Shown one piece after another: positions 1 to 14,066 of a DNA stretch of 64,000 bases. Numbering within the stretch: position 1 is the stretch's first letter; the number at the start of each line of letters is the position of its first letter. The stretch covers positions 1-64,000 of IMG/VR virus record IMGVR_UViG_3300042896_001274. One strand, written 5' to 3'. Source of the DNA: a virus. Both the position numbers and the translations under genes were made by a program. Below the pieces are notes generated by a model. The model did not search any database. It was not told the origin of the DNA and saw only the letters and a list, made by a program, of their open reading frames with translations.

Positions 1-135
1 CAAACCGGTATCCGAGAATCCAAACCGAATATCGGTGGGGATGAGGTTAATGGTAATTGGGGATTCAGGATGGTATAACCAGTAGGTGTTACCTTTATCA
101 CCATCCTTCACACCAACCAGATCTCCGGGTTTCAC
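1..135 (-). CDS. GDLV-family protein, N-terminal part (runs off window)
   Basis: First 45 codons of a gene continuing beyond the left edge. The GTG start shares two bases with the upstream TGA (GTGA). The product opens VKPGDLVGVKDG. This is the signature of a large family of 55-95-residue proteins that fills the first 14 kb. Common features are an N-terminal x-P-G-D-[LM]-V turn, a central G-[IV]-[IV]-[LIV] strand, and in most members an [IV]-G-W strand followed by a last hydrophobic strand such as EVL. That layout suggests a small SH3-like beta barrel (inference). No function is known to me. Confidence 0.7.
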   Translation of the reverse strand, partial: MKPGDLVGVKDGDKGNTYWLYHPESPITINLIPTDIRFGFSDTGL

Positions 136-257
136 TTTAGAACCTCAACCATGTTCCAGGAAACGCGGAGAACCACACCGATCTCAGGGGTGTAACGGTG
201 GATAAACAATGCACCAGGTACCACCTGATTCACACTGGGGATATCATTGTTTCTCAT
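132..257 (-). CDS. short GDLV-family remnant or minimal member
   Basis: A 41-codon ORF that starts at an ATG overlapping the upstream stop (ATGA) and ends overlapping the downstream GTG start, so it sits exactly in operon register. The product contains VVPGALFIHRY, then PEIGVVLRV, then the family ending VEVLK. It therefore keeps the first strand, central strand and C-terminal strand of the GDLV family but lacks the G-W strand. Either a minimal working member or a decaying paralogue. Its preserved overlaps at both ends argue that it is still translated. Confidence 0.6.
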   Translation of the reverse strand: MRNNDIPSVNQVVPGALFIHRYTPEIGVVLRVSWNMVEVLK

Positions 258-538
258 ACCGGTTCAACCTCACCCCTCTTTATCCAACCAATTCCGGTGG
301 AGCACAGGATTCTTATCCAGGTTGTGAGAGATAAAGAACTTCCAAAACCATCCAGAACCTCTTTTACTTCCAGAATCATTCCGGTATCATTGAAGAAGAA
401 CGGCCGAAGGTTGTTTTGCCCCTTGGCATCGTTATCGATTGTGATTGGTTCTTCCCAAATAATTTTATAATCATTAAGGATCTTCCTGGATTGGATCTCA
501 GGATCCGGAAGAAGTTTTATCATATCACCAATCTTCAC
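254..538 (-). CDS. GDLV-family protein
   Basis: 94 aa, GTG start within a GTGA overlap. Opens MKIGDMIKLL, has DTGMILEV in the middle and ends with TGIGWIKRGEVEPV, so all three family blocks are present. It is longer than average because of an insert of about 30 residues between the first and central strands. Downstream member of the operon that begins at position 1520. Function unknown. Confidence 0.75.
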   Translation of the reverse strand: MKIGDMIKLLPDPEIQSRKILNDYKIIWEEPITIDNDAKGQNNLRPFFFNDTGMILEVKEVLDGFGSSLSLTTWIRILCSTGIGWIKRGEVEPV

Positions 539-708
539 CCCACCACCTCCAACATCTCCTTGGAATACCGGAAAACCTTATAGAGATCAGGTTGGCCGAG
601 CAACCAAACCCGGTACAAACCAGTTCCACCTTGAATATCGATGATCAACCCGAGTGTATCGGTTCTGTAACTTTTCACTTTTACCAAATCACCGGGGGAT
701 AATTTCAC
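535..708 (-). CDS. GDLV-family protein
   Basis: 57 aa. I chose the GTG at 708 because it overlaps the upstream stop (GTGA) and places KLSPGDLVKVK at the N-terminus; a longer frame begins at 738. Central block LGLIIDI and C-terminal KEMLEVVG are visible, but the G-W strand is replaced by VWLLGQPDLYKV. Function unknown. Confidence 0.7.
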   Translation of the reverse strand: MKLSPGDLVKVKSYRTDTLGLIIDIQGGTGLYRVWLLGQPDLYKVFRYSKEMLEVVG

Positions 709-917
709 ACCACCCTCACGTTTCCAACATAACACCACCCAATATTTTCACCACAAACCAATTTCACATCGGAACCTTGAAGATCAAGAATCACACCGAT
801 TCCGGTTAGATTTCCGGTGTGTTTCCTTTGTACAGGATCCAGTGATCCGATGGGTGAGGAGAACAACTTGGAATAACTTCCTTTGGTATTGTTGGTAACA
901 ATATCCCCAACTCTCAT
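705..917 (-). CDS. GDLV-family protein
   Basis: 70 aa, ATG start overlapping the upstream TGA. Opens MRVGDIVTN, centre GIGVILDL, end IGWCYVGNVRVV. A clean family member. Function unknown. Confidence 0.75.
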   Translation of the reverse strand: MRVGDIVTNNTKGSYSKLFSSPIGSLDPVQRKHTGNLTGIGVILDLQGSDVKLVCGENIGWCYVGNVRVV

Positions 918-1147
918 GTTTCATTCTCCAGGAAAATAAGATTAACCCAACCGATCCTCCCGGTTACCATGATCCGTGCCCCGTTTCCACCTTGAGGTTC
1001 CGTCGTTTCAAGAACAACACCGATCTCACCTGGTTGAATGGTTCCAATGGGTTTATCACCGCCGGCCTTGTTTCCCCAGGTGGAAAAAATTGGTGTGGAA
1101 CTATAAACTTTCTTCATCCTCACCAAATCTCCAACACAAAAACTCAT
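914..1147 (-). CDS. GDLV-family protein
   Basis: 77 aa, ATG start in an ATGA overlap. Opens MSFCVGDLVRMKK. The centre PGEIGVVLET carries the extended form of the strand (x-P-x-E-[IV]-G) seen in several longer members. Ends GRIGWVNLIFLENET. Function unknown. Confidence 0.75.
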   Translation of the reverse strand: MSFCVGDLVRMKKVYSSTPIFSTWGNKAGGDKPIGTIQPGEIGVVLETTEPQGGNGARIMVTGRIGWVNLIFLENET

Positions 1148-1332
1148 AGAGGAACCTCCGAAAGATCGTGTTTCTGGTAAGTAAACTTTTCACCGGTGCT
1201 TGGATCCACAACCACGAAGTAGGGATACGAAGAGAGCCCTACCTTGTAGATATCAACGATGATTAATGGTTTTGTGGGCGGAACAAAGAGAGAATCCCTC
1301 ACGAAAACCATATCACCGAGAGATAATTTCAC
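1144..1332 (-). CDS. GDLV-family protein
   Basis: 62 aa. The GTG at 1332 is chosen because it overlaps the upstream stop (GTGA) and gives the N-terminus VKLSLGDMVFV; an in-frame start at 1353 would lie inside the previous gene. The central block is degenerate (LIIVDIYKVG) and the G-W strand is absent. Function unknown. Confidence 0.65.
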   Translation of the reverse strand: MKLSLGDMVFVRDSLFVPPTKPLIIVDIYKVGLSSYPYFVVVDPSTGEKFTYQKHDLSEVPL

Positions 1333-1520
1333 TTCATCACCTCGAAGTTCCAAACCAAATGGTTTCCGAAATCAACATCTTTAATGATTCCGGTGTTCAA
1401 CACGAACCTCCCCTCATAAGGTTGTCTTTTCTCATCAAATCTATTGGATGGGCCGAGATAAACACCAATGAAAGGTATCTCATCGAAACGAGTTAACCTA
1501 ACCAAATCACCGGGTTTCAT
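1329..1520 (-). CDS. GDLV-family protein, first gene of its operon
   Basis: 63 aa, opening MKPGDLVRL with central FIGVYLG. It is the promoter-proximal gene of the operon running to the left edge. The ATG lies 6 bp after a TAGGAT -10 box, leaving no room for a ribosome-binding site, so translation is predicted from a leaderless transcript. Function unknown. Confidence 0.75.
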   Translation of the reverse strand: MKPGDLVRLTRFDEIPFIGVYLGPSNRFDEKRQPYEGRFVLNTGIIKDVDFGNHLVWNFEVMK

Positions 1521-1526
1521 GTTACT

Positions 1527-1555
1527 ATCCTATCATCATCCCACCGGGTTTTGCA
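1527..1555 (-). promoter_or_regulatory. promoter, leaderless type (TGCAAA-17-TAGGAT)
   Basis: Read on the minus strand: TGCAAA (1555-1550), 17 bp, TAGGAT (1532-1527), 6 bp, then the ATG at 1520. The same spacing recurs at the head of other operons here, which makes chance unlikely. Confidence 0.7.
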
Positions 1556-1778
1556 CCTCAACAAGATCTTCTATGATACTCCTCAGGTTTCCACTTCCAA
1601 TCCCCAAAGTACCAACTTCACCAATGGGAATATCCCCAATGTTCCACAGAACATCAAGGGTATAGTAAGGTTCCAGGCCCAGGGAATCCTTAAAAATATT
1701 ATCTACAATTTTCCTTGTAATAACAATACCACAATATTTCGGGTTTTCTTTAAGAACAACCAGATCACCTGGAATCAT
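1536..1778 (-). CDS. GDLV-family protein
   Basis: 80 aa, ATG start. Opens MIPGDLVVLKENP, with YCGIVIT early and GEVGTLGIG late; the G-W strand is not obvious. Its C-terminal coding end overlaps the TGCAAA promoter of the next operon, so the operons are packed with no spare DNA. Function unknown. Confidence 0.7.
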   Translation of the reverse strand: MIPGDLVVLKENPKYCGIVITRKIVDNIFKDSLGLEPYYTLDVLWNIGDIPIGEVGTLGIGSGNLRSIIEDLVEVQNPVG

Positions 1779-1784
1779 ATCTCA

Positions 1785-1958
1785 TTACCCAACCAAATGT
1801 TTATCGTTGCGGAATTCTGTTAGGATCTCCCAAAGGAGGGAAGGAAGGGAATCCTGGATGTGAATGAAACATGAATAGGAACAACACCAGGCCGGGCCAG
1901 GGGAAACAACTCCAGGTTTTTCTTTCCAAAAAACCATACCAAAAATCTTTAATTTCAT
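1785..1958 (-). CDS. small hypothetical protein
   Basis: 57 aa. The ATG at 1958 is preceded by AAGGGTGA at suitable distance; a longer frame to 1991 would overlap the upstream stop. Opens MKLKIFGMVFW and contains CCSYSC. Not a recognisable GDLV member although it lies between them. Function unknown; modest confidence because composition is unusual. Confidence 0.45.
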   Translation of the reverse strand: MKLKIFGMVFWKEKPGVVSPGPAWCCSYSCFIHIQDSLPSLLWEILTEFRNDKHLVG

Positions 1959-1974
1959 AAAATCACCCTTGAAA

Positions 1975-2340
1975 CTAGCTAAAATCACCACAAATCAGAT
2001 CATAGGATTCATTTCCATGCCCAACACAGTGATCCCCATCATGCCTCCGTGGTTCCATTCCTTCGGGACTCCATTTTCCAGGGCCACGAGTGGTGATGAT
2101 CTTCAACATGTCCTCGGGCCGGACAACCTCATCATATTCATTGAGGATCTTGGTGTCAGGTTTATCCCAGGCCAACTTCCAATCATCCAAGGAATTGATA
2201 CCTTCCTCAGGAATGATGTGAAGGGAAAAACACCAACCATAGGAGGATTTTCCAATGTGTAACACCTTGGCACCAGGGTCATGCCCACAGGTTACACACT
2301 TCAACTCAGATTTTTGGTGAAAATAATAGTTCGTACCCAC
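1975..2340 (-). CDS. conserved phage/bacterial hypothetical protein (MGTNYY...GWCFSLH type)
   Basis: 121 aa, GTG start just after the upstream stop. Contains a Cys pair (residues about 15-18, CVTC) followed by LHIGKSSYGWCFSL, a combination I recognise from a widespread family of hypothetical proteins in phages and bacteria. The CxxC may bind metal. Third gene of the operon that starts at 3117. No function known. Confidence 0.75.
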   Translation of the reverse strand: MGTNYYFHQKSELKCVTCGHDPGAKVLHIGKSSYGWCFSLHIIPEEGINSLDDWKLAWDKPDTKILNEYDEVVRPEDMLKIITTRGPGKWSPEGMEPRRHDGDHCVGHGNESYDLICGDFS

Positions 2341-2343
2341 TTC

Positions 2344-2595
2344 TCAGTTTCCTCCCAGAATCTCTTCCACCAGGAGCTCAGGTTCCCCTCTTCTCTCGGA
2401 GGATCTCCAAGGTAAGGAACCCCTCTCTGCCCTTCGGAGTTGATCCACGGATTTCAATTCCTCAATCCGATACACCTCGGATCCACAGTTCCGAACCTCG
2501 AATTCTAGGTTTCTATCCCCAATCCTCTCGGCCTCACGTTCATCACGGGCATCGATGAGGATTTCTGTATGGAATGTTACTCTGTATAGCGGCAT
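2344..2595 (-). CDS. small hypothetical protein
   Basis: 83 aa, ATG start 4 bp from the upstream stop. The N-terminus reads as a beta strand (LYRVTFHTEILIDA) followed by a helix rich in E and R. The C-terminal half is highly charged. I do not recognise a family. Translation is likely coupled to the upstream 172-residue gene. Confidence 0.6.
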   Translation of the reverse strand: MPLYRVTFHTEILIDARDEREAERIGDRNLEFEVRNCGSEVYRIEELKSVDQLRRAERGSLPWRSSERRGEPELLVEEILGGN

Positions 2596-2598
2596 GGT

Positions 2599-3117: not shown

Positions 3118-3123
3118 GTTTCA

Positions 3124-3152
3124 ATCCTATCATCCTTGCACGGGGTTTTGCA
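3124..3152 (-). promoter_or_regulatory. promoter, leaderless type (TGCAAA-17-TAGGAT)
   Basis: Minus strand: TGCAAA (3152-3147), 17 bp, TAGGAT (3129-3124), 6 bp, ATG at 3117. The -10 hexamer and spacing are identical to the promoter at 1527-1555. Confidence 0.7.
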
Positions 3153-3336
3153 CCGCGGGGAGAAGATAATTTTCAGTAACGAGTTGTTGTTTTCCACTGG
3201 AGAGCAACACCACGAAGAACCGAGTATCCACGGAAACACCATGATGCTCTCTGATCACGATACCCACCGTGGGGGGAATCATTCTCTGAGGATTACCATA
3301 CAAGATGAGGTCCCCAACCTCAAGCACCACCACCAC
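3130..3336 (-). CDS. GDLV-family protein
   Basis: 68 aa. The start lies in a run of in-frame GTG codons (VVVLEVGDLIL), so the exact first codon is uncertain; all place the VGDLI block at the N-terminus. Centre TVGIVIREH, then a VVLLSSGKQQLV strand instead of the G-W strand. Its 5' end overlaps the upstream gene by 17 bp. Function unknown. Confidence 0.65.
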   Translation of the reverse strand: MVVVLEVGDLILYGNPQRMIPPTVGIVIREHHGVSVDTRFFVVLLSSGKQQLVTENYLLPAVQNPVQG

Positions 3337-3604
3337 CCTTCACCGGAATAAAATCCCAGGTGTTTGCCCAACCTACCACGCCGGACTTGGTCATCACCCT
3401 GGTCATGCAGGTTTCACCATCGATCTGAACAACAACACCGACATCACCCTTGAAAAACCGTCCCACGATCTTGGGAATCAACCCATCACGGTTCAACTCC
3501 ATCCCAAAAACATCACCATAGACATCAACAAGGACCGTCAAACCCAAGGGCTTCTTGTCCACATTGAGCCGAACAAGGTCACCAATCCTATACTCAGGCT
3601 CCAA
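3320..3604 (-). CDS. GDLV-family protein
   Basis: 94 aa with a TTG start overlapping the upstream stop region. Opens MEPEYRIGDLVRLN. Carries two candidate central strands (TVLVDV and GDVGVVVQI) and ends VVGWANTWDFIPVKGGGGA. The extra 25 residues before the second strand give one of the longest versions. Function unknown. Confidence 0.7.
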   Translation of the reverse strand: MEPEYRIGDLVRLNVDKKPLGLTVLVDVYGDVFGMELNRDGLIPKIVGRFFKGDVGVVVQIDGETCMTRVMTKSGVVGWANTWDFIPVKGGGGA

Positions 3605-3809
3605 TCAGCACCTCCGTGACGTCCAGGTTGTTCACAAATATTTCCCTTAATTCCCCTGTTGTTTCCAGTATCTTAATTCTAGAAGAATTTTTAGGGGCAA
3701 CGATGTGAACCAGACGGCTGCGTTCCACCAGGAGTCCGGTTATCGGAGGATCATCCATCCGAAAACCTTTGTGGTACCGAACCACGGAGATTAAATCTCC
3801 AACCCTCAT
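3594..3809 (-). CDS. GDLV-family protein
   Basis: 71 aa from the ATG at 3809, which overlaps the upstream TGA (ATGA) and gives MRVGDLISVVR. Central ITGLLVE and C-terminal LDVTEVLIGA are present. The region between is a charged strand pair rather than the usual G-W strand. Function unknown. Confidence 0.7.
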   Translation of the reverse strand: MRVGDLISVVRYHKGFRMDDPPITGLLVERSRLVHIVAPKNSSRIKILETTGELREIFVNNLDVTEVLIGA

Positions 3810-3985
3810 TCCACCACCTGTAGATCCGATTCTCGGCACTGAAGAATTCCTTTGTTTGGAAATAATACCCTCCAGTAGGGAAATGGGTCATGGGACTGTG
3901 TGATCCTTTCCATGATGATCCCAATGTCACCAGGAAGACCCATTTGGAAACGGAACTTCCAACCAACCATGTCACCCGGCTTCAT
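3806..3985 (-). CDS. GDLV-family protein
   Basis: 59 aa from the internal ATG at 3985 (MKPGDMVGWKFRF), chosen because the upstream in-frame extension would lie inside the neighbouring gene. Central GDIGIIMER and C-terminal ESDLQVVE are clear. Function unknown. Confidence 0.7.
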   Translation of the reverse strand: MKPGDMVGWKFRFQMGLPGDIGIIMERITQSHDPFPYWRVLFPNKGILQCRESDLQVVE

Positions 3986-4196
3986 GGCCAACTTCCTGGC
4001 AGAACCCGGAGTAAATATGATGAACACCTCCCGGGGTCAAGATGTTGTAAAAGACACGGGGATCCCCTCCGGTCTCACTAAATTCACTTAGGAATATCAC
4101 AGGGGTCGGCACATCATACCGGTGAGGATCTTGTCCCTTAACCCATCCAACAGGATAACTGTGACTCCAAACAAGGATCATGTCACCAGGATTCAT
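3972..4196 (-). CDS. GDLV-family protein, first gene of its operon
   Basis: 74 aa, opening MNPGDMILVW; the rest is divergent, with a YNILTPGGVHHIY segment in place of the G-W strand. The ATG is 6 bp after a TAGTAT -10 box with no ribosome-binding site possible on the predicted transcript. Leads the operon 4196-3130. Function unknown. Confidence 0.7.
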   Translation of the reverse strand: MNPGDMILVWSHSYPVGWVKGQDPHRYDVPTPVIFLSEFSETGGDPRVFYNILTPGGVHHIYSGFCQEVGHEAG

Positions 4197-4202
4197 GATT
4201 CC

Positions 4203-4231
4203 ATACTATCACGGTTCAACCACATTTTGCA
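4203..4231 (-). promoter_or_regulatory. promoter, leaderless type (TGCAAA-17-TAGTAT)
   Basis: Minus strand: TGCAAA (4231-4226), 17 bp, TAGTAT (4208-4203), 6 bp, ATG at 4196. Confidence 0.7.
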
Positions 4232-4455
4232 CCGGATGATCTAAACTTACCAAACCGATCATACACGGCCACCCTCCTCAAGGTTCCCATGTCATGTTCC
4301 CCGATGATCCCATCCGCCCACAACACCCGGTATCTCCACGGAACAGAAAATGGGTGCCTCATGAGCTTCTGGTCCACAAGGACCTCAACAAGAACCCCAA
4401 CCGATCTCTTGTACTCGTGGACCACAAGGTCACCTGGTCCAATTCCTCCCATCAC
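4216..4455 (-). CDS. GDLV-family protein
   Basis: 79 aa; start is GTG at 4455 or ATG at 4452, both overlapping the upstream stop. Opens with GIGPGDLVVHEYK, then VGVLVEV, then a YRVLWADGIIGEH strand. Its terminal codons overlap the promoter of the next operon. Function unknown. Confidence 0.7.
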   Translation of the reverse strand: MMGGIGPGDLVVHEYKRSVGVLVEVLVDQKLMRHPFSVPWRYRVLWADGIIGEHDMGTLRRVAVYDRFGKFRSSGAKCG

Positions 4456-4682
4456 AAGTCCCTCACCTTGATCAAGTTTTCAAACCAGAAGATCAGATGG
4501 GTGTTGATCCTCTTCATTCCTCCACCCCCAAGCAAGGATACATAGGTAATATTGCGGGGCCACACTGGACGTTCCACCTTCAACAAGGTTCCCTCGTGAA
4601 CATTTCCGTCCACGGTCTTGTAGTAGACATAGTCACCAAGCTCAACTTCGATCTCATTGCGGCCGTGGTAGGTGATCAACAC
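4452..4682 (-). CDS. GDLV-like protein
   Basis: 76 aa. The GTG at 4682 is preferred because GGAGG lies 6 bp upstream, one of the few strong ribosome-binding sites in this array. It creates a 29-bp overlap with the preceding gene. The first block is VELGDYVYYK (E in place of P), followed by HEGTLLKVE; the C-terminus FENLIKVRDL fits the last strand. Function unknown. Confidence 0.65.
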   Translation of the reverse strand: MLITYHGRNEIEVELGDYVYYKTVDGNVHEGTLLKVERPVWPRNITYVSLLGGGGMKRINTHLIFWFENLIKVRDL

Positions 4683-4860
4683 TTAATTCCTCCATGAAAG
4701 AATCGGACACGAGCTTCACTCCCAACAAGGTCATCACATGGTAATAACCCGGATGTTTTCTTCCATCACGATCCACCATGTCATATGGTCTGAGGATCAA
4801 ACCCAACCCCCAACCGCTATACACGGAAGTTGTGAACCTTACAAGATCACCTGGTTTCAT
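4654..4860 (-). CDS. GDLV-family protein
   Basis: 68 aa from the ATG at 4860, which overlaps the upstream stop (ATGA) and gives MKPGDLVRFTTS. Central LGLILRPYD and a YYHVMTLLGVKLV strand are visible. Its 3' end carries the GGAGG that serves the next gene. Function unknown. Confidence 0.75.
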   Translation of the reverse strand: MKPGDLVRFTTSVYSGWGLGLILRPYDMVDRDGRKHPGYYHVMTLLGVKLVSDSFMEELSVDHLPRPQ

Positions 4861-5081
4861 TCTTCCCCCACAAAATCTGGGACTGGATCGGAACTCCACT
4901 GGTTACTCCACAGATCCTCGACTCCTTGTGGACCAAGAATCCTGTACTTGGAATGTAACCAGCCGCTGTGAGCTTTTACCCTTTCCAGGAACAGCCCAAC
5001 CATCGGCTTCCTTCCCATCTGCACCATGGGATTGTAATCAACCTGGAACGGAGAGAAAACGTAGATCATACCCGACTTCAT
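4857..5081 (-). CDS. GDLV-like protein
   Basis: 74 aa from the ATG at 5081 (ATGA overlap). The first block reads MKSGMIYVFS, so P-G-D-L has drifted to S-G-M-I. Central MVGLFLERV and KYRILGPQGVEDL strands are retained. The tail is acidic (DFVGEE). Function unknown. Confidence 0.65.
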   Translation of the reverse strand: MKSGMIYVFSPFQVDYNPMVQMGRKPMVGLFLERVKAHSGWLHSKYRILGPQGVEDLWSNQWSSDPVPDFVGEE

Positions 5082-5272
5082 ACACAACGGATCCTCTCTA
5101 GTCCGATCAACTTTACCCCTTGCCGGGTTAGAATTTCACAGGATGGAAACGATGGTGAATAACTCGGGTGGTTCCACGGAATATTACCCAAGAAAATCCC
5201 CAAGGATGACATCACCCAGGTGTAACCGTTGAGCATCACCCCCTCAATTCTCACAAGATCGCCTGGTTTCAT
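5078..5272 (-). CDS. GDLV-family protein
   Basis: 64 aa, ATG start in an ATGA overlap with the next gene upstream. Opens MKPGDLVRIEGV; centre SLGIFLGN; then CEILTRQGVKLIGLERI. Function unknown. Confidence 0.75.
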   Translation of the reverse strand: MKPGDLVRIEGVMLNGYTWVMSSLGIFLGNIPWNHPSYSPSFPSCEILTRQGVKLIGLERIRCV

Positions 5273-5475
5273 AACGGCTTCACCTCACGGAACCAAATCC
5301 ACCCAGACCTACCATCATTCAACATGATCTGGTACCACTCGAGTTTGTTCTCGATCAGGACTCCCAAGGTGGGTTGTTTTCCGGTGTGAAAACTTCTCTT
5401 GGCAGAACCCCAATCCACGTTGCAACTGGCATGCGGTTCCACCTGGACAAGGTCACCTGGACGAATTGTTTTCAT
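5269..5475 (-). CDS. GDLV-family protein
   Basis: 68 aa. Opens MKTIRPGDLVQVEP, centre TLGVLIENK, end GRSGWIWFREVKPL, so the G-W strand is intact. The start region overlaps the preceding gene by 23 bp in a different frame. Function unknown. Confidence 0.75.
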   Translation of the reverse strand: MKTIRPGDLVQVEPHASCNVDWGSAKRSFHTGKQPTLGVLIENKLEWYQIMLNDGRSGWIWFREVKPL

Positions 5476-5659
5476 GGATGACCTCCATCATTGTTTCTAC
5501 CTCATCCACAACCACGCCTCCCTCACACATGACGGTCCACCATTGGTGCTTCTCATCCCCCCAGGTGTTGCTACGGTCGGATTCCTTGATGATGATACCA
5601 GTCATTGGGACGCCCCAGAAACCACCCACCTTATTCCTCACAAGGTCACCCGGCTTCAC
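5453..5659 (-). CDS. GDLV-family protein
   Basis: 68 aa from the GTG at 5659 (VKPGDLVRNKVGG). The same frame stays open up to 5839, but that extension would lie inside the neighbouring gene and lacks family similarity. Centre MTGIIIKE, then WWTVMCEGGVVVDEVE. Function unknown. Confidence 0.7.
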   Translation of the reverse strand: MKPGDLVRNKVGGFWGVPMTGIIIKESDRSNTWGDEKHQWWTVMCEGGVVVDEVETMMEVIHENNSSR

Positions 5660-5849
5660 TGAGGACCTCCAACTCCTGGTCACCATTTCTCCAAACATGG
5701 TAGATGAACTTACGGCCGTCTTGTTCCAGGAGCTCCATGGTAAAATCAATTCCGCTGTGATAATCTGGATATGGATGGATAGAAATGACAACACCCACAA
5801 CTGTTTTGTCACGGGCCCATTTGAACCGAATAAGGTCACCAGGTTTCAT
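5646..5849 (-). CDS. GDLV-family protein
   Basis: 67 aa, ATG start in an ATGA overlap. Opens MKPGDLIRFKW, centre VVGVVISI, end DQELEVLSEAG. Function unknown. Confidence 0.75.
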   Translation of the reverse strand: MKPGDLIRFKWARDKTVVGVVISIHPYPDYHSGIDFTMELLEQDGRKFIYHVWRNGDQELEVLSEAG

Positions 5850-6037: not shown

Positions 6038-6279
6038 TTCATCACCGACACCAATGAATACCGAGCAAGGTTCTTCAACCCAGTAGGGGTAATCAAGGTT
6101 CCTTTCGAAGGGTTGATCACAACGGCAGGGAAAATGTCAGAATCATTATTGACAAAACGGTTAGCACCAAGACCCTCCAACATGTAACCACCGTTGCCGG
6201 ACTGCCGGGCAGAGGACGAAGGATAAACCAAAGATCCCTGAGGAACTTCAGATAGATAGATGTCCGTGAAGCGGCTCAT
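6034..6279 (-). CDS. divergent GDLV-like protein
   Basis: 81 aa, ATG start overlapping the upstream stop. Contains VPQGSLVYPSS (compare P-G-D-L-V), then FPAVVINPSKGTLITPTGLKNL, so the family order of strands can still be traced. A Gly/Ser/Asn-rich linker of about 25 residues sits between. Function unknown. Confidence 0.6.
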   Translation of the reverse strand: MSRFTDIYLSEVPQGSLVYPSSSARQSGNGGYMLEGLGANRFVNNDSDIFPAVVINPSKGTLITPTGLKNLARYSLVSVMK

Positions 6280-6482
6280 ATGACCTCCAAGTACGAGACG
6301 TGTAACATTGCGAAGTGGGTCGGCTCAGATCCTAGAGGAAGAACACGGTAGGAGTTCAGCTGGTATGCCGTATACTTCGTAAATTTCCTATGAGAAAGGG
6401 GGTCTACGACAGGTCCCATCACCACGCCCAACCAATCACGATTGATCTTGTGCCGAACCAGGTCACCGGGCTTGACTTCCAT
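6276..6482 (-). CDS. GDLV-family protein, first gene of its operon
   Basis: 68 aa from the ATG at 6482 (MEVKPGDLVRHKI), which is 6 bp downstream of a TATACT -10 box; a longer frame would start upstream of the promoter. Centre WLGVVMGP, end MLHVSYLEVI. Leads an operon of about ten genes down to 4216. Function unknown. Confidence 0.75.
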   Translation of the reverse strand: MEVKPGDLVRHKINRDWLGVVMGPVVDPLSHRKFTKYTAYQLNSYRVLPLGSEPTHFAMLHVSYLEVI

Positions 6483-6517: not shown

Positions 6518-6715
6518 CTATGCTTCTTTAAAAACTTCAACAAGGACATCCTCATACCACTCGAAAACCTCTCCGGTCCCACACCTTAGAATCTTACAGG
6601 CAGGACCCCCCAATGTCTCGCTGGTCCGTCCTATCACGAGGTACATACTTTCATCCTCGAATAGTTCGGGTTGGATCAACCTGACCATGGTCCCCGGCCG
6701 GAATCCGGAGCTCAT
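6518..6715 (-). CDS. GDLV-family protein
   Basis: 65 aa from the ATG at 6715 (ATGA overlap). Opens SSGFRPGTMVRLI, with MYLVIGRT in the centre and YEDVLVEVF at the end. It is the last gene of the long operon that also contains purB; its stop abuts the -35 box of the next promoter. Function unknown. Confidence 0.7.
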   Translation of the reverse strand: MSSGFRPGTMVRLIQPELFEDESMYLVIGRTSETLGGPACKILRCGTGEVFEWYEDVLVEVFKEA

Positions 6716-7002: not shown

Positions 7003-7275
7003 TCACTCTTCACCTGGGCTTTTCACCGGCACAACATCGCTACCGAAAAGCCAACCGACACCGGCCGGGATCAGAATCTGGATGAAGGTATCACGGTCAG
7101 GATCGCCAGGGACGCTCCACGGGGTCACCTGCAACACCGTCCCGACCTCATCAGGTCCCCAAGGAATATCGTGTGATGACATGGGATCATCACTGGATGT
7201 GATCCAAACCGTGTCAGGTTTGTAATTGTGGACCACTAGATCTCCAGGGATTGGTTCAAATTCAGCTTTTTTCAT
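7003..7275 (-). CDS. GDLV-family protein
   Basis: 90 aa from the ATG at 7275 (ATGA overlap). Opens KKAEFEPIPGDLVVHNY, carries the extended central block GPDEVGTVLQV, and ends AGVGWLFGSDVVPV. It is a close relative of the next gene upstream (7272-7523): both share an acidic insert before the central strand and a five-residue turn before G-W. They look like a recent tandem duplication. Confidence 0.75.
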   Translation of the reverse strand: MKKAEFEPIPGDLVVHNYKPDTVWITSSDDPMSSHDIPWGPDEVGTVLQVTPWSVPGDPDRDTFIQILIPAGVGWLFGSDVVPVKSPGEE

Positions 7276-7523
7276 TTCGGAACAGTTCCCATGATCTGAA
7301 GTTGGCTCTCCCATATCCACCCAATTCCACTAGGAATCAATACTTTTACGTAGTTCTCAGGACCAAAGTCGGGCCCTGGGTCATCATACAACGTGAACCC
7401 AAGAACAATTCCTAGCTGTTCCTTGCCCCACTCCAAGGTGAAATCTTTCTCGGGGTCATCATCACCCGGGTCCAACCAGATCATGTCCCGATACCGATGT
7501 TTGACCAGATCACCAGGTTTCAC
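7272..7523 (-). CDS. GDLV-family protein
   Basis: 83 aa with a GTG start that overlaps the purB stop (GTGA), so translation is coupled to purB. Opens MKPGDLVKHRYRD, centre KEQLGIVLGFT, end SGIGWIWESQLQIMG. Near-paralogue of 7003-7275. Function unknown. Confidence 0.75.
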   Translation of the reverse strand: MKPGDLVKHRYRDMIWLDPGDDDPEKDFTLEWGKEQLGIVLGFTLYDDPGPDFGPENYVKVLIPSGIGWIWESQLQIMGTVPK

Positions 7524-8788
7524 GGCTCAGACACCACCCGATCTATGATCTCTTGTGAATACCTTAAACAGTGTTCCAGGTCAAAACAACCCTCGATCTC
7601 GTCCTTGGTGAGGTGGGTCTCGATGTCAGGATCATGGATGATCAACTTCTTGAAAGAGACACCGGACTCATGGCTCTCCAAGGCATTCCTCTGGACCATC
7701 GCATAGGCTACCTGCCGAGGAACACCCTTATCGACCAGGGACAGCAACACGGATTCACTGTAGATCAAACCGTTGCTGGAGTCCAGGTTCTTCCTCATCC
7801 GATCCACCTTGACCACCAGATTCTCCATGACACCGGTGATCCGCTCCAACATGTAGACCACGGTCGAGGTCGAATCAGGGGCTATGTGTCTCTCCACGGA
7901 AGAATGTGATATGTCTCTTTCATGCCACAACGGAATGTTTTCCAGGGCAGGTTGAAGGTGGCTCCGCACCACCCGAGCCAATCCACAGAGATTCTCACTG
8001 GAGATGGGGTTCTTCTTGTGAGGCATGGCACTTGAACCCTTCTGTCCTGCCCCAAACCGTTCCTCAACCTCACCCACCTCGGTCCGTTGGAGGTGCCTTA
8101 GATTCACTGCCAATCTTTCTATTCCTCCCGCGATGAGGGCCATGACAGAAAAATAAGCGGCATACCGATCTCGAGCCACCACTTGGGTAGATATCGTCTC
8201 GGGCCTCAACCCCAGAGATTCCAGCGCAATCTTTTCTACCTCGGGTGAGAGGTGGGCATAGGTCCCAACGGCACCAGAAACCTTTCCGACCTTGATCTCT
8301 TCTCGGGCCGACATCAACCTCTTCATGTTCCTCTTGGCCTCGGACAGGTGACCGGCCAGGAACAGCCCAAAGGTAGTGGGTTCGGCATGGATCCCATGGG
8401 ACCTTCCGATCATAGGAGTGGAGGAATACTGGTAGGCCATCCGCTCCAGGACACGGATGAATTTCTCCAACCTATCCCTGATGATCTCGGTCGATTCTAG
8501 GAGCAGGAGAGAGAAACCGGTATCAACTATGTCACTAGAGGTGCAACCCATATGGACCTTCAATGCCCGGGGTCCTAACACTTCTTCTAGGTAAGTTAGG
8601 AAGGCTATGACATCGTGTCGGGTGGTCTTCTCGATCTCCCCTATCCGATCAACATCGAATTGGATGTCAGGAAGGTCCGGTACATGTGCCGCGGAATATA
8701 TGGCTCTCTCTACGCGGTACCATGTCTCGTATTTCTTTTTTTCAGACCAGATCTCACGTGTTTCGGGACTAGAATACCTGTCCAACAT
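7520..8788 (-). CDS. purB: adenylosuccinate lyase
   Basis: 422 aa, about the length of a short bacterial PurB (roughly 430). PurB splits adenylosuccinate into AMP and fumarate (and SAICAR into AICAR) in the cytosol. Visible family signatures: SHGIHAEPTTFG (about 130-141, catalytic His region), the CTSSDIVDTG block near residue 85, and the superfamily signature GSSAMPHKKNP (about 251-261). The flexible-loop Ser and the Lys/Asn ligands are present, so it should be active. ATG with AGGTGA upstream. It lies inside the operon 11284-6518 among GDLV genes, 2.7 kb from purA, which makes its substrate. Phage-encoded PurB is unusual but known in purine-remodelling phages. Confidence 0.93.
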   Translation of the reverse strand: MLDRYSSPETREIWSEKKKYETWYRVERAIYSAAHVPDLPDIQFDVDRIGEIEKTTRHDVIAFLTYLEEVLGPRALKVHMGCTSSDIVDTGFSLLLLESTEIIRDRLEKFIRVLERMAYQYSSTPMIGRSHGIHAEPTTFGLFLAGHLSEAKRNMKRLMSAREEIKVGKVSGAVGTYAHLSPEVEKIALESLGLRPETISTQVVARDRYAAYFSVMALIAGGIERLAVNLRHLQRTEVGEVEERFGAGQKGSSAMPHKKNPISSENLCGLARVVRSHLQPALENIPLWHERDISHSSVERHIAPDSTSTVVYMLERITGVMENLVVKVDRMRKNLDSSNGLIYSESVLLSLVDKGVPRQVAYAMVQRNALESHESGVSFKKLIIHDPDIETHLTKDEIEGCFDLEHCLRYSQEIIDRVVSEP

Positions 8789-8797: not shown

Positions 8798-9034
8798 CTA
8801 TCCTAACACTTCTACATAGTCTGAATAGGTCCAACCGACCTGACCTTCCACCATGACCTTGATTGGGAACCACCTACCTCTGTCTCGGTGAAGCTGTCTA
8901 CTTTCTAAAATGATTCCAACCTGAGATGCCGTCCAATAGAAAGAAATGTGATCGACCTCGTGATCCATGTAGTCTGGATTATCAAACATGAACTCTTCAT
9001 TGTCTACCGGAACCACAAGGCTGCCAGGTGTCAT
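8798..9034 (-). CDS. GDLV-family protein
   Basis: 78 aa, ATG start in an ATGA overlap. Opens MTPGSLVVPVDNE (S for D), centre ASQVGIILES, end GQVGWTYSDYVEVLG; all blocks present. The stop is followed within 10 bp by the purB start. Function unknown. Confidence 0.75.
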   Translation of the reverse strand: MTPGSLVVPVDNEEFMFDNPDYMDHEVDHISFYWTASQVGIILESRQLHRDRGRWFPIKVMVEGQVGWTYSDYVEVLG

Positions 9035-9219
9035 AGTGTCTCCAACTGAATATATCTTGCCTTGGTCATGCCATCAGGGCCTAACAGGATGGCCGTCCAG
9101 GGATCTTCTGAATCTTGACCGATATAAACATAGATAATTTGTCTAGATTTTTTTGTGACCCACCAGCGGACCAGCTCGCCTGGAACGAATGTGTTTTGCT
9201 TTCTTTCTGGGTTGATCAT
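9031..9219 (-). CDS. GDLV-family protein
   Basis: 62 aa, ATG start. First block FVPGELVRWW is preceded by an 11-residue leader; then IIYVYIGQ and WTAILLGPDGM. The first 77 bp overlap the 3' part of the preceding gene in another frame, much longer than the 4-bp overlaps normal here. Function unknown. Confidence 0.65.
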   Translation of the reverse strand: MINPERKQNTFVPGELVRWWVTKKSRQIIYVYIGQDSEDPWTAILLGPDGMTKARYIQLETL

Positions 9220-9397
9220 CCTGGTGCTCTACTGGAAAAATAAGGTAAGAATTGACTTCTTCAACACCGTCTTGTGTCAAAACCAAACAGTTTTCATGAG
9301 CACCGTTTGTCACCCCGTCGTCTATGTAAATTCCCAATTTTTCTGGGACGATTTCAGGGGTAAATGATGTCACGATGATCAAGTCCCCCACTTTCAT
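9143..9397 (-). CDS. GDLV-family protein with out-of-frame C-terminal extension
   Basis: 84 aa. Opens MKVGDLIIVTSF, centre KLGIYIDDG, then CLVLTQDGVEEV, and the natural family ending would be near LIFPVEHQ. The last 25 residues (rich in K and R) are read over the start of the next gene. This is best explained by loss of an original stop or a small frameshift that extended the frame. Function unknown. Confidence 0.65.
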   Translation of the reverse strand: MKVGDLIIVTSFTPEIVPEKLGIYIDDGVTNGAHENCLVLTQDGVEEVNSYLIFPVEHQDDQPRKKAKHIRSRRAGPLVGHKKI

Positions 9398-9714: not shown

Positions 9715-9879
9715 TCAGACAGTAATCCTTGGTGCACAGGGACAGTTAATGGAAGCACAGGATCCCTGTCCCTTTAGATCAACACCACATGTTGGACAGT
9801 TTGTGATCTTACCTTCACTTAGGTAATTTTCCTCTTTGTGATGGTCTGCCACGATTGCTTTTTCTTTCTTGTTTTCCAT
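9715..9879 (-). CDS. 54-residue zinc-ribbon protein
   Basis: A short ORF, ATG at 9879 to TGA at 9715. It starts MENKKEKAIVADHH and ends with CPTCGV, then 12 residues later CASINCPCAP. Four to five Cys in a CxxC...C(4)CxC layout suggest a single zinc ribbon. Its first 65 bp overlap the 3' end of the neighbouring GDLV gene in another frame. Without it there would be an otherwise unused gap. Function unknown. Confidence 0.6.
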   Translation of the reverse strand: MENKKEKAIVADHHKEENYLSEGKITNCPTCGVDLKGQGSCASINCPCAPRITV

Positions 9880-10069
9880 TTTCCAATTTTTCCATCATGA
9901 AATCAAGCACACGAACGGTACGGGTCCCACCAGAAATCAACACGGTATAGATCTCATCGCAATACCCTATGATCATCCCGGTGAGACCGACGAGGTCATC
10001 ACCCACGGTAAAACTCATTGGATCATCTATGATCCGTATGAGATCACCTACCTGCCAAGCCTGGTTCAT
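9815..10069 (-). CDS. GDLV-family protein
   Basis: 84 aa. Opens NQAWQVGDLIRIIDD, centre LTGMIIGY, then YTVLISGGTRTVRVLDFMMEKLEN, where the family would normally stop. A further 20 basic residues (KQERKSNRGRPSQRGK) are read across the start of the zinc-ribbon gene, as in the overlap at 9143-9219. Function unknown. Confidence 0.65.
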   Translation of the reverse strand: MNQAWQVGDLIRIIDDPMSFTVGDDLVGLTGMIIGYCDEIYTVLISGGTRTVRVLDFMMEKLENGKQERKSNRGRPSQRGKLPK

Positions 10070-10630: not shown

Positions 10631-10640
10631 GATCCAATAA

Positions 10641-11284: not shown

Positions 11285-11290
11285 GTTGTT

Positions 11291-11319
11291 ATTCTAACAC
11301 CGTCTCGTAAATTTTATCA
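11291..11319 (-). promoter_or_regulatory. promoter, leaderless type (TGATAA-17-TAGAAT)
   Basis: Minus strand: TGATAA (11319-11314), 17 bp, TAGAAT (11296-11291), 6 bp, ATG at 11284. The -35 differs from the TGCAAA form at two positions. Confidence 0.55.
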
Positions 11320-11505
11320 CACTCGTTTAACCCTAGAATCGACGAAGCTCTTATACTTCATGATCACCTTATTTCCAACAAGAAATTGGTATCTCAATGT
11401 CGAAGGCAAGGCCGTCTCTACAACCCCAAGAAAAATTCCAAAAAATAAATTATTGGAAATACCGGTCCGAGATAAATTAATAATCACAGGATCACCCGGA
11501 GTCAT
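11317..11505 (-). CDS. GDLV-family protein
   Basis: 62 aa from the ATG at 11505 (MTPGDPVIINLSR), which avoids overlap with purA. Central FFGIFLGVV, then FLVGNKVIMKYKSFVDSRV. Lies directly downstream of purA and is probably translated from the purA mRNA. Function unknown. Confidence 0.7.
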   Translation of the reverse strand: MTPGDPVIINLSRTGISNNLFFGIFLGVVETALPSTLRYQFLVGNKVIMKYKSFVDSRVKRV

Positions 11506-11509
11506 GGAG

Positions 11510-12502
11510 TCATAGGTTCTCTGGGTTATCACTCCAATAAATAGTCACATCGGAACCGATTTGATTTGTAATGAAATCCTTGATTCCCATCTCTGAAGAG
11601 AATGTCAACTTCTTTCCATGATAATAAAGACACCACATCCCAATTGACCTGAGAATGTCCATCTTTGAAACAACGAGATCGGTCACACCATTGATCCTAG
11701 CTGCTTTCACCAAATTATCAATGTCCAACCAATTACACTGCCGTGGTCGGCCCGTAGTTGCTCCATACTCATTACCAAGCCCTCGAATCTTTTCAAAAAC
11801 GGGATCATCAGGTTCGAACTTCTTCGTTCCAACATATGTCTCATAGATCTTAGCTGCCCCATAAATCTTTCTGATCTTCTGAGGTGGAACACCATTCATC
11901 ACGGCAGAACCCACTGTGCAGTGAGATGACGTGACATAAGGATAATCTCCCCAATCAACATCCAAATAGAATCCCTGTGCTCCTTCGAACAGCACAGAAC
12001 ATCCCTTCTTGCCGTGGAACTCCTCATAAACATCGATCAGGTAGGGTTGCAGCTCATGGACCTCTGATGCCCTAATTCCCTTACGATCGTACTTGTCTCT
12101 GTAGGCAGGTCCGTTGCCACGCTTCGTGGTTCCAATCTTGGTGTCACGGCCGTCCTCTTCTAGGTGAGAGCTAGTGATGATGTGGGTGTTCTTTGAAATA
12201 TAAACCAAACCGTTGAGATCTATTCCACAATCCTCAAGATCATCAAGCTCATCAAAGAAATGATCCACATTCACCACACAACCAGGTCCTATGATGCTCT
12301 TTACACCGTGAAGAACTCCGGCTGGAATGCTGTGAGTCACGATCTTCTTACCGTCCTTGTAGATGGTATGACCAGCATTGTTCGATCCGTTGAATCGAAC
12401 GGAATGGGTATAGTCTCCAGTTTGAACCAAAGAATTGGAAATTTTTCCTTTTCCAGAGTCACCCTGCTGCAGATCTAAAATAACATCAGCAAAATTAATC
12501 AT
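11510..12502 (-). CDS. purA: adenylosuccinate synthetase (short, archaeal-length PurA/PurZ family)
   Basis: 330 aa. Family members join IMP and aspartate using GTP to make adenylosuccinate. Visible: the N-terminal loop QQGDSGKGK (residues 12-20), NNAGHT (41-46, His45 matching the catalytic His), GTTKRGNGPAYRDK, FEGAQGFYLDVDWGDYPYVTSS and GATTGRPRQCNWLD. The length matches archaeal PurA (about 340) rather than bacterial PurA (about 430). The catalytic Asp (E. coli Asp13) is kept as Asp15, but the following Glu is Ser. In the 2-aminoadenine enzyme PurZ, as I recall it, the Asp itself is replaced, so this is more likely a PurA than a PurZ. Co-transcribed with membrane and GDLV genes from 13389. 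Confidence 0.88.
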   Translation of the reverse strand: MINFADVILDLQQGDSGKGKISNSLVQTGDYTHSVRFNGSNNAGHTIYKDGKKIVTHSIPAGVLHGVKSIIGPGCVVNVDHFFDELDDLEDCGIDLNGLVYISKNTHIITSSHLEEDGRDTKIGTTKRGNGPAYRDKYDRKGIRASEVHELQPYLIDVYEEFHGKKGCSVLFEGAQGFYLDVDWGDYPYVTSSHCTVGSAVMNGVPPQKIRKIYGAAKIYETYVGTKKFEPDDPVFEKIRGLGNEYGATTGRPRQCNWLDIDNLVKAARINGVTDLVVSKMDILRSIGMWCLYYHGKKLTFSSEMGIKDFITNQIGSDVTIYWSDNPENL

Positions 12503-12513
12503 GTGTTGTTTGT

Positions 12514-12864
12514 TTAACCTTTTCGGAACATTAAATTTTTCAGTGCAGACTTTCGAGACTCAAGCTCTCTGATCTCTTCTTCAAGCTCAAACCTCATGTC
12601 GGCCAGCTGCCGAACCCTTCGAACACCCACATCTTCTGACTCAAAATTCTTCTTATCTTTTGACATTTGTACAAAAGAACATCCGACAGAAGTGAATATG
12701 GAAACAATCGCAGTTCCCAAAAGAACCCCACCCATGGTGTGATACTCAGGACCCATAAATCCTAGACAAACACCAATCATACCAAACACTTTGGCCAAAA
12801 TAAAGAAAACAATGGCGGCCCATGACATTGATGTCATGTTCGTAAACAGTCCAGAATCTTTCAT
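12514..12864 (-). CDS. membrane protein with C-terminal coiled coil
   Basis: 116 aa from the ATG at 12864, one base after the upstream TAA. Two transmembrane segments (about residues 13-38 and 45-67) are followed by a charged helix (QLADMRFELEEEIRELESRKSA split over residues about 85-110) that should form a coiled coil. No family recognised. Confidence 0.65.
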   Translation of the reverse strand: MKDSGLFTNMTSMSWAAIVFFILAKVFGMIGVCLGFMGPEYHTMGGVLLGTAIVSIFTSVGCSFVQMSKDKKNFESEDVGVRRVRQLADMRFELEEEIRELESRKSALKNLMFRKG

Positions 12865-12865
12865 C

Positions 12866-13102
12866 TTACGCCTTTGACGGACCAAACCTCACCAGCCTGA
12901 ACAACGGACCCGCACCAAAATCTTTGATGATTTGAGATGATCCTGACCTGTTGTTTCTTCCCCACCTCAAATACTTCGGGGCCGGAAACAAGTGAAAAGA
13001 CCACACGGTCCCACGAAGAGGATGTTCACCCCAGACGTTCAACACACCGTGGTGAAACAGCGAGAAATTAATCCTCGTAAATGGAATCCTAAAAGTCTTC
13101 AT
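12866..13102 (-). CDS. small basic hypothetical protein
   Basis: 78 aa rich in R, F, W and P, e.g. FSLFHHGVLNVWGEH and YLRWGRNN. Beta-rich by appearance; no family recognised. Sits between the 92-residue gene and the membrane protein in one operon. Confidence 0.55.
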   Translation of the reverse strand: MKTFRIPFTRINFSLFHHGVLNVWGEHPLRGTVWSFHLFPAPKYLRWGRNNRSGSSQIIKDFGAGPLFRLVRFGPSKA

Positions 13103-13110
13103 CTCATTTA

Positions 13111-13389
13111 TTAAACCTTTTTCTTGGTGGTCATGACAGTGGCAGGATACCTTTCTGCGTCAGTCTCCTTGACTTGGTACTCAATCACTTCCCACAACGG
13201 TGACAAAGAAATTCGAAAGGCCTCGAGGGCAGAAAAATGCTTCTTCAATTCGCCAATGTCCTTCCAAATCTTGCCCCGCTTGGACCAAGTAGGCTCACCA
13301 GTGAACTTTTCGACCTTACCGTCCTGATACAGTCCGGTTCCCAGGTCACGCACCTTAAACTTAACCTTCTTAACTTCTGTTTCAGACAT
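13111..13389 (-). CDS. phage hypothetical protein, first gene of the purA operon
   Basis: 92 aa, ATG start 9 bp after a TAAGAT -10 box. KVKFKVRDLGTGLYQDG followed by PTWSKRGKIWKDIGELKKHF looks like a small beta-alpha protein of a type common in phages (a K-x-G-K-x-W box). Function unknown. Heads the operon 13389-11317 that carries purA. Confidence 0.65.
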   Translation of the reverse strand: MSETEVKKVKFKVRDLGTGLYQDGKVEKFTGEPTWSKRGKIWKDIGELKKHFSALEAFRISLSPLWEVIEYQVKETDAERYPATVMTTKKKV

Positions 13390-13396
13390 AACTCTA

Positions 13397-13603
13397 CTAT
13401 CTTATACCACCTTGCACGAAGTTTTCACAGCTCTGCAAAAGTTCTAATTCACTTTCGATCCGCTCGACAAATCCGACATCAGTCAGCACCGTGTACATCG
13501 GGGATGCCCACCCATATCGATATCCAACATAAATTCCAAGCCGAGGTAATGTTTCTTCAGCGCTAAAAGCATCATACACAATGACAAGATCGCCTGGAAT
13601 CAC
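13397..13603 (-). CDS. GDLV-family protein
   Basis: 68 aa, ATG start. Opens MIPGDLVIVYDAF, centre RLGIYVGYR, then YTVLTDVGFVERI and ELELLQ. Its 3' end overlaps the promoter of the purA operon. Function unknown. Confidence 0.75.
   Translation of the reverse strand: MIPGDLVIVYDAFSAEETLPRLGIYVGYRYGWASPMYTVLTDVGFVERIESELELLQSCENFVQGGIR
13399..13427 (-). promoter_or_regulatory. promoter (TGAAAA-17-TAAGAT)
   Basis: Minus strand: TGAAAA (13427-13422), 17 bp, TAAGAT (13404-13399), 9 bp, ATG at 13389. Same architecture as the leaderless promoters but with a slightly longer distance to the start codon. Confidence 0.6.
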
Positions 13604-13842
13604 TTCAAAACCTCAAGCTCAGAAACATTTGCCCACCACAACTTGGACCCAATCATCAGCTTCACTCGACAGCTGTTTTCCCGTTGAATCTCTATGACCA
13701 ACCCAGTTTCTCCCCGGTGCAGCCATCCTATGTCTCCTAGGTATCCATAATAAATGTTTTCTGGATCTATAGAAAATTCCACTGACTCGCTAAGAAGACC
13801 GACACTATCTCCTATGGGAACCACAATGTCTCCCGGTTTCAT
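13600..13842 (-). CDS. GDLV-family protein
   Basis: 80 aa, ATGA overlaps on both sides. Opens MKPGDIVVPIGDS, extended central block GETGLVIEIQ, then KLWWANVSELEVLK. Function unknown. Confidence 0.75.
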   Translation of the reverse strand: MKPGDIVVPIGDSVGLLSESVEFSIDPENIYYGYLGDIGWLHRGETGLVIEIQRENSCRVKLMIGSKLWWANVSELEVLK

Positions 13843-14066
13843 CGGATTTCCTTTACTTCATCATGAAAGCACAGACCAACACCACCAGGTATCATCACCA
13901 ACACCCCAACTTGACCCACTACTGCAGGCAAAACAATCCCAACCTCGTGGGGATGCCATTCAGGCCACTCACTTCCCTCCGGGTCATTCAACGGGGTGAG
14001 CCTCACGATACCATTCAAATGAGAAGGATAACGGGAAACAGATCTCACCAATGTCCCAGGCCTCAT
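13839..14066 (-). CDS. GDLV-family protein, first gene of the array
   Basis: 75 aa. Opens MRPGTLVRSVSRY, centre HEVGIVLPA, end GGVGLCFHDEVKEI (L for W in the G-W strand). First gene after the divergent region with the tail-fibre gene. Function unknown. Confidence 0.75.
   Translation of the reverse strand: MRPGTLVRSVSRYPSHLNGIVRLTPLNDPEGSEWPEWHPHEVGIVLPAVVGQVGVLVMIPGGVGLCFHDEVKEIR

Follow-up and report, generated by a model that had tools for sequence, protein, structure and literature searches.

A probable recombining array of single-gene cassettes for small SH3-like proteins in a phage contig

Why should a phage carry, head to tail on one strand, tens of small genes that resemble one another only faintly? 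The question is raised by bases 1-64,000 (hereafter 'the window') of IMG/VR virus record IMGVR_UViG_3300042896_001274, which is 68,034 bases long. Positions 1-14,066 hold an array of small genes that runs off the contig end, and a preliminary description of the window had read it as a tandem array of about 35 diverged paralogues. We conclude that this left 14 kb is probably part of a recombining cassette array, in which each cassette is one complete small gene. Sequence comparison shows that every clear unit opens with a conserved block, that all units lie on a single strand and that most of them overlap, in many cases by precisely 14 or 4 bp.

The minus strand of 1-14,066 was read gene by gene, starts being picked by reading frame and ribosome-binding site. 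This yielded 52 genes (g01 to g52), of which 33 or 34 are family members, g20 counting only through its orthologue in L005 (loci are designated L plus a number). Interspersed among them are about 17 unrelated small genes, PurA and PurB. The expectation of tens of members was therefore borne out with a slightly lower count, but the claim that almost all small genes belong to the family has to be narrowed to about 33. Linkage by 4-bp overlaps, proposed as general, holds for 21 of the 51 junctions with the chosen starts, the remainder being other overlap lengths or short gaps. The shared features that had defined the family, namely the GDLV block, G-[IV]-[IV], [IV]-G-W and terminal EV strands, are indeed present at the coordinates given, on the minus strand.

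Pairwise BLAST connects few window members, the best pair being g32 and g33 (7003..7275 and 7272..7523; 38%, E 3e-15). With a twelve-seed profile, further members scored above the best shuffles. In a leave-one-out profile test, 35 of 37 proteins scored above all 500 of their own shuffles, and none of the 17 interspersed genes did so. Twenty proteins still beat all their shuffles when the GDLV block was removed, so the likeness is not confined to the N-terminal block. An independent profile was made from 300 units of other phages, leaving out both the window and sequences closely related to it. It recovered 26 of 33 array members at E < 0.01, each above 200 of its own shuffles, and matched no non-member in the window; seven array members, and all but one of the four outlying copies, remain above E 0.01. 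A profile does, then, link most of the members, which the preliminary description had proposed to check. Three candidates for divergent units, g10, g27 and g28, were rejected by both tests. The array units and their relatives almost certainly form one SH3-like family.

Models of two members predict the unit to be an SH3/KOW-like barrel of about 55-90 residues. AlphaFold gave g33 a mean predicted local distance difference test score (pLDDT) of 85.2 and seven strands, from an alignment of window and related sequences, and gave a canonical 59-residue L012 unit a pLDDT of 91.7; the two models have five to seven strands. Foldseek returned SH3, KOW and related barrels for both, with probabilities mostly of 0.9-1.00 and template-modelling (TM) scores of about 0.6-0.85. 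These included Abl and other SH3 domains and the UHRF1 tandem tudor for g33, and eS4 KOW, PetP, the UvrD C-terminal domain and SPbeta YorP for the L012 unit; the nearest viral models were short unnamed proteins (TM 0.77-0.87). A sequence-profile search of PDB pointed to the Spt5 and NusG KOW domains, MIB1, uL24 and, weakly, Src SH3. The E-values are modest, which is usual for 60-residue barrels, and all lines agree on the same fold, the small SH3-like barrel conjectured earlier.

Relatives were gathered with PurA as bait, then with two DNA patterns of the start block; the locus and member counts that rest on the first of these patterns are lower bounds. The window PurA led to 58 related viral contigs, and arrays are present in L004 (86%), in L005/L273 (82%, a 211 kb contig) and in the more distant L012. 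In 2.9 Mb of loci, the profile found at least 1,735 members at E < 0.01, spread over at least 217 loci of uncultured phages, and it matched none of 20,954 reversed decoys. The highest density among the loci listed was at least 37 members per 15 kb, and 20 whole records had 1 to 33 profile matches each. Single linkage, which merged some types, gave 763 unit types among at least 1,761 units; 525 were seen once, and the Chao1 estimate of the pool is at least about 1,900.

No family match was found in NCBIfam or PADLOC. In Pfam and PHROGs none rose above chance; weak matches were scattered, mostly to SH3-type models, each common to at most 3 of 119 members. Searches of single units against INPHARED (cultured phages) with tblastn and blastn gave nothing significant, although very distant relatives would escape them; the best match, a Gordonia minor tail protein (E 0.7), was taken as chance. 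The barrel fold itself occurs singly in cultured phages. The arrays thus appear to rest on a protein family that is not in the databases searched. Among GTDB species, only six contigs carry the junction pattern, all from metagenome-assembled genomes (MAGs). In L292 and L293 (CP070664.1, a WOR-3 MAG recorded as one 2.8 Mb chromosome), units lie in three regions, one of them near a gene that reads like a large terminase. We take these units to be phage DNA, either a prophage or sequence that entered the MAG during assembly.

The order of units was compared between arrays sharing at least five reciprocal-best units and having a mean identity under 97%. Unit pairs were in opposite order in 512 of 2,092 cases, whereas the remaining genes of these locus pairs gave 45 of 853; when loci selected through the GTGAAAGTCGGTGA block were excluded, the counts were 110 of 609 and 3 of 415. 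The compared pairs are not independent, and all these counts are stated without P values. Arrays of 97% identity or more were collinear. In the 91 pairs of units whose neighbours differ, the start codon marks a step in nucleotide identity from about 0.30-0.35 to more than 0.8, and identity falls past the stop. Both flanks were unlike for 145 of 264 unit pairs (55%); among other genes this held for 53 of 235 small ones and 134 of 419 large ones. A unit had its nearest relative in another phage in 1,125 of 1,424 cases and in the same array in only 43, which argues for shuffled cassettes from a large shared pool rather than local tandem duplicates. The 'tandem array of diverged paralogues', understood as local duplication, must therefore be given up: units are gained, lost and reordered singly or in blocks.

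The window itself provides an example (E values quoted with single genes are those of the independent profile; all array genes are on the minus strand). Relative to L273, the order g29-g26-g25-g24-g16-g15-...-g08-g07-g06-g04-g02 is kept, while some units have moved. The pair g19-g20 (4216..4452, E 1.1e-7, and 4452..4682) comes after g21 in the window and before g29 in L273; g17 (3806..3985, E 1.7e-10) precedes g16 in the window and follows g15 in L273; and g21 (4654..4860, E 1.2e-7) lies in L273 between g07 and g06. No counterparts of g18, g22, g23, g03 and g05 were found in L273. The weak unit g07 (1144..1332, leave-one-out) is joined to g06 in the window; extra units intervene in L273. The start of g06 (914..1147, E 9e-7) is hybrid: its first ~17 nucleotides match the unit standing next after g07 in L273, whereas the remainder matches L273 g06, so that the crossover maps to the GGWGATTT block, the DNA that encodes the GDLV block. 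When g04, g05, g06 and g08 are compared to a relative, identity is 0.33-0.41 upstream of the block and 75-99% downstream. Thus g04 (535..708, E 8e-8) is 93% identical to L273 at the nucleotide level, while the DNA to either side of it is unlike, and g05 (705..917, E 5e-4) has a 70% orthologue in L201 with unlike upstream DNA. Within one phage pair, silent-site divergence (dS) ranges from 0.08 for g08 (1329..1520, E 3e-6), which is near-identical to L273, up to saturation for g14, g21 and PurA, as expected if unit histories differ. The identity steps at start and stop and the crossover between the window and L273 both place breakpoints at conserved boundary sequences. Units thus appear to pass from one phage to another as complete genes that are joined and broken at their start and stop blocks, and cassette exchange at gene borders is very probable.

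Between orthologues of window units, the ratio of nonsynonymous to synonymous divergence (dN/dS) is 0.07-0.56 where dS is measurable. Such purifying selection indicates that the units are functional proteins, and the earlier impression that members are maintained proved sound.

What, then, distinguishes the borders of these genes? In none of the 1,033 pairs of neighbouring units do the two members differ in strand, and their commonest overlap is exactly 14 bp, followed by 4 bp. As the 14-bp overlap was partly selected by the search patterns, the data were split by search route: it occurs in 22% of PurA-selected pairs (32 pairs only, free of junction bias), 45% of MKPGDLV-pattern pairs and 65% of other-pattern pairs, compared to 1.8% of ordinary gene pairs of the same loci. 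In canonical arrays the start block is RTGAARNYNGGTGAYYTNGT, encoding M-K-x-G-D-L-V, and the unit end block encodes E-V-[IV]-S/N and holds the next unit's ribosome-binding site, GAGGT. The consensus of the 14-bp junction is TgGAGgTnaTcA followed by gTGAAagtcGGTGAttTgGT; it reads ...E-V-I-S-E-S-R-stop in one frame and M-K-V-G-D-L-V in the shifted frame. The ESR tail is accordingly the start of the next gene in another frame, and E-V carries that gene's ribosome-binding site. Two observations support this reading: the Glu codon at the E-V site is GAG in 370 of 387 cases (17 otherwise), against 3,015 of 7,445 elsewhere (4,430 otherwise), and an ESR-type tail ends 76% of units with a 14-bp follower, but 12% of those without one. 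The 'EVL-like strand' of the preliminary description is therefore conserved partly because of the DNA, as the ribosome-binding site of the next gene. Promoter-like matches (21, with 19.6 expected in shuffles) and terminator-like matches (16, with 14.0 expected) were not above shuffles, and RNA elements gave no Rfam match.

Within one canonical array, the repeated start and stop blocks reach 20-30 identical bp. General phage recombination, or template switching, at these blocks could insert, delete and reorder units, and it seems rather likely, from the sequences, that the blocks themselves act as recombination sites. Because both unit ends are alike, any unit order still yields a translated, coupled operon. 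Each phage would then carry about 10-35 units sampled from the pool of at least ~1,900 types.

Several points weigh against such a recombining cassette array. Most loci were found by start-block patterns, which inflates the junction consensus. Identical runs at window junctions have a mean of 4.8 bp and a 90th percentile of 7 (2.7 and 4 in random stretches), and with runs so short, recombination at the blocks may be weaker in the window than in canonical arrays. Selection between orthologues is purifying, not diversifying, so that an ongoing arms race is not apparent at this level of comparison. The blocks could be maintained simply by selection for coupled translation, with recombination no more than tolerated there. 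Background mosaicism is also high: unlike DNA flanks 23-32% of the other genes on the same contigs on both sides, although the figure for units, 55%, is clearly higher. The last two points lend themselves to an alternative, gene-level mosaicism as in every phage, in which illegitimate recombination strikes anywhere, selection removes intragenic breakpoints and the blocks are kept for translation only; the presence of Shine-Dalgarno (SD) sequence, start and stop within the blocks would explain their conservation. Units are nevertheless reordered several times as often as the other genes of the same contigs, and a crossover was mapped inside the GGTGAT block. We consider this alternative unlikely, though it deserves to be taken seriously.

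If the arrays are recombining cassettes, what do the units do? The canonical alignment shows conservation at strand residues, whereas the sequence of the long loops is near random (3.5-4.1 bits); the barrel core would be a fixed scaffold whose variable loops bind different targets. That the loops bind diverse targets is, on these sequence patterns, somewhat favoured. A fixed scaffold, free loops, tens of copies, exchange and purifying selection together fit binders of varied partners better, we infer, than a single common task. One such task would be directed at RNA or the ribosome, the KOW-like units acting on transcription or translation as phage-specific factors. The best profile matches, to KOW-type domains of Spt5, NusG, uL24 and eL21, with eS4 by structure, speak for it. 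Net charge, however, spans about -8 to +6 (5th to 95th percentile) and has no common sign, so that nothing points to one surface type, DNA-mimicking or RNA-binding, shared by all units, and charge was rejected as an indicator of either; moreover, near-random loops and dozens of differing copies per genome ill fit one common target. We regard an RNA- or ribosome-directed function as rather improbable. Selfish cassettes, spread by their boundary structure with little benefit to the phage, would account for the open pool and the shuffling, but the consistently purifying selection and the absence of any recombinase or mobility gene seen in a unit make them a poor candidate. Finally, ordinary tandem duplication with divergence in place, the differences between phages being old paralogy and gene loss, is very improbable and was rejected as the main source of units: it suits the head-to-tail arrangement on one strand and a few recent local pairs (g32/g33, and a pair in L063 at 87%), but not the scarcity of nearest relatives within the same array, the scrambled order between related arrays or the very unequal unit dS in one phage pair.

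Among partners of the putative binders in the cassette arrays, host defences would be the likeliest class, and by analogy they may be the main targets, a suggestion that we put at somewhat less than even. Nip of phage phi3T, which has predicted SH3-like domains, binds and blocks the TIR defence SpbK (PMC11984713). More speculatively still, the arrays may represent a virus-borne, integrase-free cassette system, through which thousands of SH3-like mini-binders would be common property of the jumbo and T4-like phages found in natural waters; a coding start block with an embedded ribosome-binding site would be the universal connector, and each lineage would hold a fast-changing kit for counter-defence or host control. 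Many small phage genes lack a known purpose; since hundreds of them share here one fold and one building plan, a large piece of this puzzle becomes testable at once. Should the units prove to bind proteins of the host or of its defences, the arrays would amount to a library of small inhibitors made by nature, in which the history of phage-host conflict could be read directly. The connector offers a concrete, testable mechanism for single-gene swaps without operon disruption.

The remaining units may be followed along the array in the reading direction. It opens with g52 (13839..14066, E 5.8e-4; L004 orthologue 96%, dN/dS 0.09), g51 (13600..13842, E 1.2e-7; dN/dS 0.11 versus L004) and g50 (13397..13603, E 2.4e-5; dN/dS 0.07), all supported by the leave-one-out profile, each of the latter two overlapping its predecessor by 4 bp. 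A promoter-like pattern match, ATGAAA-18-TATAAT, lies just upstream of g52 (14109-14080, minus strand), although the total of such matches is not above shuffles. Two purine genes stand within the array as non-units: the PurA-type adenylosuccinate synthetase used as bait (11510..12502; Pfam PF00709, E 7e-80) and the PurB adenylosuccinate lyase (7520..8788; Pfam Lyase_1 and ADSL_C), which shares 4 bp at its stop with the start of g33. A third purine enzyme, of IMPDH/GMP reductase type, is encoded at 57417-58502 (minus strand).

Between or next to these genes, the leave-one-out and independent profiles both support g37 (9143..9397, E 1.1e-4), g35 (8798..9034, E 9e-4, also in the twelve-seed profile), g33 (E 8.7e-8) and g32 (E 0.0072). 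For g40 (9815..10069, E 2.9e-4), which has an L005 orthologue, one of its own shuffles scored higher in the leave-one-out test. Further on, both profiles support g29 (6276..6482, E 5e-7; dN/dS 0.22 versus L273), g25 (5453..5659, E 2.7e-10), g24 (5269..5475, E 4e-5; L273 orthologue 88%, dN/dS 0.20), g23 (5078..5272, E 5e-6; L242 match 64%), g16 (3594..3809, E 2.8e-3; dN/dS 0.33), g15 (3320..3604, E 2.3e-6; dN/dS 0.21), g09 (1536..1778, E 1.1e-5) and g03 (254..538, E 2.4e-4), g15 and g03 being recovered by the twelve-seed profile as well. The independent profile also recovers g26 (5646..5849, E 3.8e-10), which has a 14-bp overlap with g25 and a 3' end encoding the SD GGAGGT, g14 (3130..3327, E 4.9e-5; L273 orthologue 54%) and g01 (1..135, E 5.7e-4), which is cut by the contig end and has a whole orthologue in L201.

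Besides g07, six members are weak. In the leave-one-out test, g45 (11317..11505, with a GDPV block) scored 7.3 bits against 7.0 for its best shuffle, g36 (9031..9219) 9.6 against 8.8, g30 (6518..6715) 9.0 against 8.0 and g02 (132..257; 41 residues, L273 orthologue 90%) 6.2 against 5.4, while g22 (4857..5081), whose GD motif is degraded to SGM, and g18 (3972..4196; L242 match 44%) reached 19.6 and 21.5 bits. The independent profile missed g45 and was not significant for g36, g30, g22 and g18. Lastly, g20 is a probable divergent unit, supported by an L005 orthologue (39%) with PGDLI and by neither the leave-one-out nor the independent profile alone.

Four outlying copies on the plus strand had also been proposed, and they fared unequally. 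The unit at 31544..31804 is supported (E=0.0098), and its start overlaps the stop of ClpP (Pfam E 1e-25) by 4 bp, in keeping with the coupling to ClpP noted earlier. Those at 30663..30941 (E=0.017) and 30199..30444 (E=0.054) are marginal, with leave-one-out support. The weakest, at 21058..21348 (E 1.2), has a leave-one-out score of 11.6 bits against 10.4 for its best shuffle, and a 46% orthologue in L005. At 30984-32734 (plus strand), the genes for the ClpP protease, for this unit and for an FGE-sulfatase-type protein adjoin.

Other features of the window were recorded. Just past the array start, on the opposite strand, 14209-16425 (plus strand) encodes a fibre-like protein that contains a collagen-like repeat and gave a weak match of pectate-lyase type. 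An intein divides DNA polymerase III alpha between two genes (49833-54803, minus strand): the part at 52974-54803 ends in an intein-like N part (CLNPETLVKT...), and the part at 49833-52070 opens with an intein-like C part (...FFVSNTSKEWLLTHNS). An endonuclease-like gene (52030-52965, weak Phage_endo_I match) lies between the halves, which is a fractured-gene arrangement. An N-terminal tag of the type MKITVNQLRKIIKEE is common to five otherwise different proteins (24739, 55249, 59120, 59497 and 63837, minus strand) and may be a sorting or processing signal; tags resembling it are also present in L292 and L293, in genes of phage-like character.

How do the arrays compare with known systems? Integrons hold arrays of single-gene cassettes, mostly of unknown function, which are drawn from a large shared pool, are reordered and need attC sites. 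The arrays described here likewise are rows of single-gene cassettes from a shared pool, in changing order. Unlike integron cassettes, the units overlap, are co-translated and all have one fold. The overlaps between units, mostly of 4-14 bp, leave no intergenic room for an attC-type site; no integrase-directed search was made, and the contigs are fragments. At the level of the single protein, YorP of prophage SPbeta (PDB 2heq) is, like the units, a small single-domain SH3-like phage protein (TM 0.70 to the L012 unit), but it was not detected as a sequence relative and, to our knowledge, is not a member of an array. Nip resembles the units as a phage protein with predicted SH3-like domains; it differs in having 279 residues, with two SH3-like domains and an HU-like domain, and in being a single gene of Bacillus phages, and no test made here identified it as a homologue.

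Closer parallels concern the mode of exchange. In T4-like phages, small non-core genes are shuffled at PeSL, a repeated promoter-terminator stem-loop between genes (Arbiol 2010 and Comeau 2014, as summarised in PMC4503421). As far as that summary describes them, both systems involve small non-core genes, a repeated short motif and shuffling between related phages; the block repeated here is, in contrast, coding (an SD with overlapping start and stop), and the shuffled genes belong to one protein family. Promoter or terminator modules of the PeSL type were rejected here, as matches were not above shuffles and most junctions overlap without a spacer. In lambdoid phages, short conserved boundary sequences lie at module borders, where homologous recombination builds mosaics, according to the outline in PMC3029335. 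The idea is the same, recombination at short gene-border sequences giving mosaics; compared with that outline, the scale is larger here, with tens of one-fold units per genome and a fixed overlap of 14 or 4 bp at many of their borders.

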